A stretch of 64,000 bases of DNA from an uncultured bacterium (GTDB taxonomy: Bacteria; Cyanobacteriota; Vampirovibrionia; Gastranaerophilales; Gastranaerophilaceae). Positions within the stretch are counted from its first letter, which is position 1. Each line of letters opens with the position of its first letter. Both the position numbers and the translations under genes were made by a program. The notes beneath the pieces were generated by a model, which did no database searches, was not told where the DNA came from, and saw only the letters and a program-made list of their open reading frames with translations. Below are positions 25,650-26,172 of the stretch, in pieces. The DNA lies in the NCBI GenBank assembly GCA_949296245.1, contig CASFNW010000008.1, positions 1 to 64,000 of the forward strand, written 5' to 3'.

Positions 25650-26111
25650 AAAAAAGAAGGCTTGATGCCTTCTTTTTTAAATGGCTCCTCGGGTGAAGGA
25701 CTCCGTTGGCGTTGCAGCAAAACGATTGAATATCGTTTTGCGTTGAAGATTTTCTTTAAATGAACTTAGACACAATGAGCCAATGGAGGGAAGAACCTGC
25801 GAGGATTGCATATGCAATCCGAGTCGGTTCGAGTCCGCTGTTAAAGATCTTTGCATAAAAAAAGAAGGCTTGATGCCTTCTTTTTTAAATGGCTCCTCGG
25901 GTGAAGGACTCCGTTGGCGATGCAGCAAAACGATTGAGTATCGTTTTGCGTTGAAGATTTTCTTTAAATGAACTTAGACACAATGAGCCAATGGAGGGAA
26001 GAACCTGCGAGGATTGCGCTGGCAATCCGAGTCGGTTCGAGTCCGCTGTTAAAGATCTTTGCATAAAAAAAGAAGGCTTGATGCCTTCTTTTTTAAATGG
26101 CTCCTCGGGTG
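25650..26111. repeat. Two 208-bp tandem repeats plus shared 3' end of tRNA-Asn
   Basis: Period is exactly 208 bases: the GAAGGCTTG block occurs at 25656, 25864 and 26072. Each unit contains the tRNA terminator hairpin, the last 14 bases of tRNA-Asn including CCA (as TGGCTCCTCGGGTG), and about 145 bases of unique sequence. The units differ at only three places: 25712/25920, 25730/25938 and 25810-25813/26018-26021. Potential folds: CTCCGTTGG (25701) with CCAATGGAG (25780), a perfect 10-bp hairpin GCAAAACGAT/ATCGTTTTGC (25717-25741), and GGATTGC/GCAATCC (25803-25820). The arrangement resembles the E. coli tyrT repeats (rtT RNA), which also carry a tRNA 3' tail. Confidence 0.9.
26064..26094. terminator. 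tRNA-Asn terminator (also present in each repeat unit)
   Basis: AAGAAGGC/GCCTTCTT stem around TTGAT with A- and T-runs on both sides. It lies just after the tRNA on the minus strand. Identical copies are at 25650-25678 and 25857-25886. Confidence 0.8.
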
Positions 26112-26172
26112 GGACTCGAACCTACAACCCTTCGGTTAACAGCCGAATGCTCTGCCATTGAGCTACCGAGGA
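26098..26172 (-). tRNA. tRNA-Asn (GTT)
   Basis: On the minus strand the acceptor TCCTCGG pairs with CCGAGGA, followed by discriminator G and an encoded CCA. The D arm AGCTCAATGGCAGAGC, the anticodon loop CTGTTAA (anticodon GTT) in a TTCGG/CCGAA stem, and the T arm GGTTCGAGTCC are all intact. Its 3' tail is the sequence copied in the neighbouring 208-bp repeats. Confidence 0.95.

Follow-up and report, generated by a model that had tools for sequence, protein, structure and literature searches.

Tandem 208-bp units behind a Gastranaerophilales tRNA-Asn gene probably belong to a class of small tRNA-specialised insertion units

The 208-bp units that follow a tRNA-Asn gene in an uncultured gut bacterium of the Gastranaerophilales probably belong to a class of insertion units that are small, mostly non-coding, and specialised for tRNA genes. 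Such genes are favourite landing sites of bacterial mobile DNA. Each unit has an intact tRNA gene on one side and, on the other, a further copy of that tRNA's 3′ acceptor tail, and one and the same body was found behind different tRNA genes, each time with the T-arm and tail letters of its host. The DNA analysed (the window, 64,000 nucleotides in total) is part of a metagenome bin of 61 contigs, approximately 90% complete, referred to below as G000. A preliminary description of the window had considered a structured RNA or tandem insertions at a tRNA attachment site; the latter fits best, since polymorphic, tail-flanked insertions were found behind many tRNA genes.

The tRNA-Asn(GTT) gene is intact, with the CCA encoded (Rfam score, 66.4 bits), and the array lies 3′ of it, that is, toward lower coordinates (Table 1). 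Both units of the window have a period of exactly 208 bp and are 97% identical; they differ at 6 positions, 5 of which are within hairpin loops. A partial third copy at 26066-26111 corresponds to the first 46 bases of the unit and comprises a bidirectional terminator and the final 14 bases of tRNA-Asn, CCA included. On the + strand, the tail reads TGGCTCCTCGGGTG and was located at 25682-25695, 25890-25903, and 26098-26111. The two period-208 units with tail and terminator had already been reported in the preliminary description and were confirmed, to which the identity value and the 46-bp copy are now added; the hairpins named there also exist (25717-25741 and 25925-25949, 25701-25788, and 25793-25830).

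Two points were absent from that description, namely homologous units elsewhere (see below) and an inverted copy of the T-arm. Both window units contain an exact 11-nt reverse complement of the tRNA-Asn T-arm, its centre unaltered; on the + strand it reads GGTTCGAGTCC at 25826-25836 and 26034-26044, as against GGACTCGAACC inside tRNA-Asn. An exact repeat of the block is seen in the window array and at a tRNA-Asp gene (L047). The promoter-like site of tRNA-Asn, TTTACA-16-TATAAT, scored 11/12, and no promoter-like site was found within the window units. Searching the window locus against Rfam gave tRNA as the sole family matched.

Table 1. Positions of the features at the tRNA-Asn locus of the window
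Feature	Position	Strand	Basis
Host gene tRNA-Asn(GTT)	26098..26172	-	ARAGORN, Rfam RF00005
tRNA-Asn promoter-like site	26207..26234	-	TTTACA-16-TATAAT, 11/12
Unit 1, tRNA-proximal, 208 bp	25858..26065	-	repeat-search register; 97% to unit 2
Unit 2, distal, 208 bp	25650..25857	-	repeat search
Bidirectional terminator hairpin directly 3′ of tRNA-Asn	26066..26094	.	inverted repeats
Terminator copies	25858-25886; 25650-25678	.	inverted repeats; terminator score from distal copy
First extra tRNA-Asn 3′ tail, CACCCGAGGAGCCA	25890..25903	-	sequence
Second extra tRNA-Asn 3′ tail, right boundary of the array	25682..25695	-	sequence
Unit 1 inverted T-arm GGACTCGAACC, 11/11 reverse complement of host T-arm GGTTCGAGTCC	26034..26044	-	inverted repeat
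Unit 2 inverted T-arm	25826..25836	-	inverted repeat
Unit 1 left hairpin, GAACC..GGTTC enclosing GGATTGC/GCAATCC	26001..26038	.	folding
Unit 2 left hairpin	25793..25830	.	inverted repeat, folding
Unit 1 body, outer stem CTCCGTTGGC/GCCAATGGAG	25909..25996	.	folding, alignment
Unit 1 inner hairpin GCAAAACGAT/ATCGTTTTGC, inside body	25925-25949	.	folding, alignment
Unit 2 body, structure as unit 1	25701..25788	.	folding, alignment
Unit 2 inner hairpin	25717-25741	.	folding, alignment
Unit 1 right end GAGTCCTT, then C, then tRNA tail	25904..25911	-	sequence
Unit 2 right end GAGTCCTT, then C, then tRNA tail	25696..25703	-	sequence

A hairpin-rich, G+C-rich stretch with the end GAGACAGTCCGAAGCAGTTGCAAAACTAGATTA is present at 25480-25610 of the window, and ends like ...CTAGATTA follow other G+C-rich stretches of the same genome (L094 and L095). 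The 25480-25610 stretch is perhaps a second repeat family or the remnant of a unit in reverse orientation.

Units found at other loci range from approximately 80 to 400 bp and share one architecture. Read away from the tRNA, the order is tail, usually terminator, inverted host T-arm, hairpin, T-arm 5′ half, structured body, and tail, and in many unit kinds the T-arm 3′ half stands before the final tail. The body splits a would-be second T-arm (GGTTCGA, body, GTCC). The centre of the inverted T-arm is altered in most unit kinds: in type-2 units, the T-arm core TCGA appears as GAGA in the inverted copy, and in types A (the kind in the window), B, and C, the core is usually TCTC on the tRNA strand, i.e. 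GAGA on the other strand. The first and the last terminator differ at many loci.

The T-arm segments match the host gene. For 29 occupied tRNA genes, with T-arms from the remaining occupied genes of each genome as controls, the inverted copy gave 318 against its own T-arm vs 282 ± 5.5 against the others, and the T-arm 5′ half gave 220 against its own host vs 197 ± 3.9 (0/5000 permutations in each case). At 28 further places in type-2 units, the letter pairing with GA[G/A]TCC agreed with the host 26 times and disagreed twice (Fisher 1e-5), and in type-A units 27 of 28 were matched to the host (27 vs 1); the p-values of host matching are optimistic because related genomes are not independent. 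Some units, those at Thr-cgt, Val-tac, and Pro-ggg, match the T-arm poorly. In another genome (G055), bodies 90–95% identical were found behind tRNA-Tyr, -Ile, -Leu(tag), and -Leu(gag), and in the Tyr, Ile, and Leu(tag) units the inverted T-arm and the T-arm 3′ half have the host's own letters, which points to spread among tRNA genes with re-tailoring.

The possibility raised earlier that the unit is absent outside this assembly was contradicted by homologous units in many other genomes. When the unit was searched against relatives, similar DNA was detected in 42 of 99 genomes; long matches were confined to the genus of the window and a few genera of its family, many others comprising just a hairpin of 20–30 bases. 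A scan for the right end in 84,980 species genomes gave 32 stretches, mostly in Candidatus Gastranaerophilales or gut/rumen bins. In stretches that include an upstream tRNA gene, the right end, GCCAACGGAGTCCTT, runs into the 3′ tail of that very tRNA, the kinds being Asn, Ser, His, Met, Lys (two), Arg (three), Asp, and Gly. Further hosts of units were Val, Gln, Leu, Tyr, Ile, and others. A type-2 motif scan of the phylum was positive in 82 of 386 genomes, nearly all in the family of the window, and the reversed control pattern was positive in 1.

Related or differently built units were observed in G000 itself behind Val, Gln, Glu, Thr, Phe, Leu, Arg(acg), and others. Its tRNA-Arg(ccg) gene (L069) is followed by five tandem units of approximately 87 bp with GATTCGAACCCC..GGGGTTC, which are among the shortest, and its tRNA-Arg(cct) gene by a 1.8 kb insert with a 414-codon gene. 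With the count restricted to exact copies of the 10-nt 3′ core no more than 4 kb away, a tRNA's own core was repeated downstream of 9/39 tRNA genes in G000, 9/33 in G006, and 14/33 in G055 (chance expectations 0.04, 0.01, and 0.03, respectively), the G006 and G055 counts including a few larger islands; in G070, from another family of Gastranaerophilales, such a repeat was found behind 0 of 22. Arrays vary among species in content and copy number. Within one genus, the tRNA-Asn location ranges from empty (G009, G020, and G003) to occupied by several units of different kinds, and several unrelated bodies were found at one location. At one tRNA-Leu(gag) gene (L099) and two tRNA-Asn genes (L128 and L129), the encoded CCA is lost from the working gene and kept in the displaced downstream tail, which suggests that the 3′ end of the tRNA was exchanged upon insertion.

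Folding of the units is strong. The + strand of the window units gave z = -5.8 against shuffles, and under DNA parameters the units folded strongly on both strands (mean z -4 to -6). Two type-2 units have a three-way junction as the minimum-energy fold, the stems being inverted-T3′/T3′, inverted-T5′/T5′, and body; the window's type-A unit has a short closing T-arm stem, and two separate hairpins make up its minimum-energy fold. The covariation proposed as a check was observed in the type-A inner hairpin, where compensatory changes (GCAAAA/TTTTGC, GGAAAA/TTTTCC, and CAAAATGAT/ATCATTTTG) were seen by eye in the alignment. The suggestion of a structured RNA held only in part: the structure proved real and covarying, but no sign of RNA action, promoter-like site, or Rfam family was obtained for it. 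Among the loop segments of the type-2 scan, 87 of 90 distinct ones form a hairpin, with 39 different stems, and GNA accounts for 49 of 62 triloops, C-G being the usual closing pair. Type-2 units have their GNA loops on the tRNA strand and type-A units on the opposite one, in each case the strand whose altered T-arm centre gives tandem G.A mismatches. GNA-type hairpin loops are very stable in single-stranded DNA, which favours DNA over RNA and is no proof; strand structure would look alike for RNA.

The closest known case is RtT of E. coli (RF00391; rttR at tyrV/tyrT, and the proK units), which is likewise formed by tandem units behind a tRNA gene with an acceptor tail each. The likeness to tyrT had been pointed out in the preliminary description together with the remark that the sequences are unrelated. 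The first statement held and goes further than was claimed, the shared architecture including the host-matched inverted T-arm; the second held insofar as no similarity to RtT is detectable with Rfam (RF00391 had no match in the window at the gathering score, nor any within 25400-26400 at E<=5). Inspected by eye, the tyrV/tyrT repeats are GAAGGAT-GA-GAAGCTTC...GGTTCGAC...ATCCTTC plus tail, the RtT-annotated units behind tRNA-Pro are GAGGAT-GA-GAACCTCC...GGAGGTTCGA...ATCCTCT plus tail, and a Providencia unit behind tRNA-Lys has a similar body with Lys letters. RtT and the Gastranaerophilales units have in common an inverted T-arm with altered centre (GGAT-GA-GA...), a hairpin, GGTTCGA, a body of several hairpins, and ATCC plus tail, and the T-arm letters of RtT are tailored to Tyr, Pro, and Lys (Providencia) like those of host-matched Gastranaerophilales units. 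The host-matched inverted and split T-arm is a feature recognised here, outside Rfam's definition of RtT.

Several differences from RtT were also found. Type-A units have a long hairpin as their body, and the centre change, if there is one, points to the opposite strand. Each window unit contains a terminator, which is not obvious in the tyrV units and is present in the proK units. Occupancy amounts to a quarter to two fifths of the tRNA genes in the scanned Gastranaerophilales genomes. In E. coli, 1–14 RtT-like places were counted per genome. The full proK unit was present in 2650 of 5426 E. coli genomes and a shorter match in nearly all others. At one E. coli tRNA-Pro locus (L249), what we take to be a REP-like palindrome seemingly occupies the body position of a second, truncated RtT unit.

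No recombinase gene was found inside any unit examined, including the cargo-bearing ones. Short units are gene-less; cargo units carry ParDE, XRE, or proteins without a Pfam match, some larger ones having a ParDE toxin-antitoxin pair and an XRE regulator. Four PF00589 proteins are encoded by G000 (two Xer-sized, one of 356 aa, and one of 406 aa), with one of the longer two next to a tRNA-Gly gene and the other within a tRNA-Lys island; G055 encodes three (two Xer-sized and one of 362 aa). Among these few proteins, as found with the PF00589 model, no integron integrase was recognised. The window has a 328-codon open frame for a XerC/XerD-type tyrosine recombinase at 43561-44100 on the + strand. 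Short tyrosine recombinases (183–202 aa) occur in G014 (three copies), G009, G021, G006, and G070; this family is present both with and without units.

The units resemble integron cassettes in being short and tandem, some with toxin-antitoxin genes (ParDE). They may also resemble attC, as a strand would form an imperfect duplex whose centre is unpaired; folding of the units is strong and their G.A motifs are strand-specific. They are unlike integron cassettes in the tRNA T-arm target, the tRNA tail carried, and the mostly gene-less state, and the R and L boxes of attC were not recognised in folded units. Tyrosine-integrase islands in tRNA genes (tDNA islands) restore the tRNA and leave a displaced 3′ fragment at the far end (PMC4383910), and phage Ms6 uses a T-loop attB (PMC1762012). 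The tRNA 3′ end is restored at one end of a unit and displaced at the other as in tDNA islands, but the units differ in the size of approximately 80–400 bp, the lack of an integrase, the arrays of mixed kinds, and the inverted host T-arm. REP/RAYT and IS200/IS605-derived units are alike in being small, palindromic, and non-coding; unlike these, the units are bound to tRNA 3′ ends, and Y1 transposase is absent from G000.

Several origins were rejected. For REP/IS200-IS605, no Y1 transposase (PF01797) was found in G000, a bin approximately 90% complete. For tRNA-primed reverse transcription, PF00078 was lacking in G055, G014, G021, and G009, the first three of which carry units; a tRNA-primed retroelement is also at odds with tail copies that lack CCA where the gene lacks it (tRNA-Met). 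Target duplication of the transposon, CRISPR, or casposon-like kind was dismissed as the first and last terminators differ at many loci. Carriage by phages was rejected on scans of viral contigs and a phage collection: the type-A right end had no match in viral contigs, the type-2 motif had 67, below a rough chance estimate of approximately 180 (one being a clear unit behind tRNA-Ala), and the RtT unit was present in a single record of the phage collection, itself a piece of Salmonella chromosome.

Among the explanations competing with a class of insertion units, the units might be miniature integrative islands, i.e. remnants of tyrosine-integrase elements (phage, ICE) or MITE-like derivatives with the tRNA 3′ end as attB, a resident integrase acting in trans on double-stranded att sites and the hairpins being arm sites. 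A restored tRNA with a displaced tail is what characterises tDNA islands, the Lys, Arg, and Met genes of the same genomes bear larger islands whose tRNA repeats are longer (that at tRNA-Lys is approximately 13 kb with an integrase gene inside), and a first terminator unlike the last at many loci looks element-borne. We nevertheless regard this origin as rather unlikely, because the integrase-bearing ends examined (tRNA-Gly and tRNA-Lys of G000) are without the inverted T-arm, no unit was found with an integrase, and a double-stranded att site needs no host-matched inverted T-arm. There is a small chance that the units serve the host as an RtT-like RNA, produced by read-through from the tRNA promoter or as antisense, whose inverted T-arm would pair with its own tRNA and control maturation or termination. 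RtT is annotated in E. coli as a small RNA adjoining tyrV, the structure is conserved, and the inverted copy matches the host T-arm even in stem letters that have no partner in the unit's T-arm half. Against such an RNA are the terminator between tRNA and unit and the missing promoter-like site inside the units in the window, the absence of units in sister species and their variable number, and the several unrelated bodies at one location.

Copying of the tRNA 3′ end with neighbouring DNA by slippage or homologous recombination, no insertion system being involved, would agree with the perfect 208-bp period, and tail repeats would change copy number without a special enzyme; as a full explanation it is contradicted by the finding, within one genome, of nearly identical bodies that have host-matched ends behind several tRNA genes, and by the same right end behind many tRNA kinds, and it is accordingly held to be very improbable. 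That the array is an artefact of assembly deserves hardly any credence: tandem repeats are prone to misassembly and the genome is a bin of 61 contigs, but the window units have 6 differences between them, related but different arrays were found in independent assemblies, and closed E. coli genomes have the same architecture.

If the units are insertion units as preferred here, they would be inserted beside the T-arm of many tRNA genes and would carry or take up the T-arm and tail of the host. A unit would bring its own tail and, as a rule, its own terminator, the latter suggested because the first and last terminators differ, so that the tRNA would stay whole, and the repeated tails would permit gain and loss of copies. 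Less certainly, the units may act as single-stranded DNA in folded form, with the inverted T-arm pairing with the split T-arm to give a double-stranded-like T-arm with a mismatched, G.A-rich centre; a recombinase, acting in trans, might then pair this rebuilt T-arm-like duplex with a real T-arm, as attC is paired with attI. Neither an excised circle nor movement was observed.

A more far-reaching reading is offered only tentatively, namely that the units constitute mobile DNA of a new class, spread over two or more bacterial phyla and comprising cassettes, gene-less or sometimes gene-carrying, that target the universal tRNA T-arm, re-create it from a folded single strand, and are re-tailored for each host, with RtT as a domesticated form or relic and with an unrecognised, possibly host Xer, recombinase as the mover; Xer proteins are expected in genomes without units too. 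Should the single-strand reading be true, this would be a second natural system, besides integrons, that uses a folded strand as a recombination site. No description of units copying the host tRNA T-arm was found in the full-text literature, subscription journals being mostly outside its scope, and the class of tRNA-attached insertion units appears undescribed so far. The link to RtT places a long-known and little-understood curiosity of E. coli in a larger class, and since RtT shares the design, the question can be tested in E. coli, where natural isolates vary in copy number.

Gene-carrying inserts in or beside units (L052, 4500-7700 in reverse complement coordinates; L191; and L095) share ends like GGACATTTGGTCGGAAG and AAACCGACTGTTCTTTTACA. 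These inserts have inverted repeats, one of them carries ParDE and XRE genes, and they look like another cassette family.
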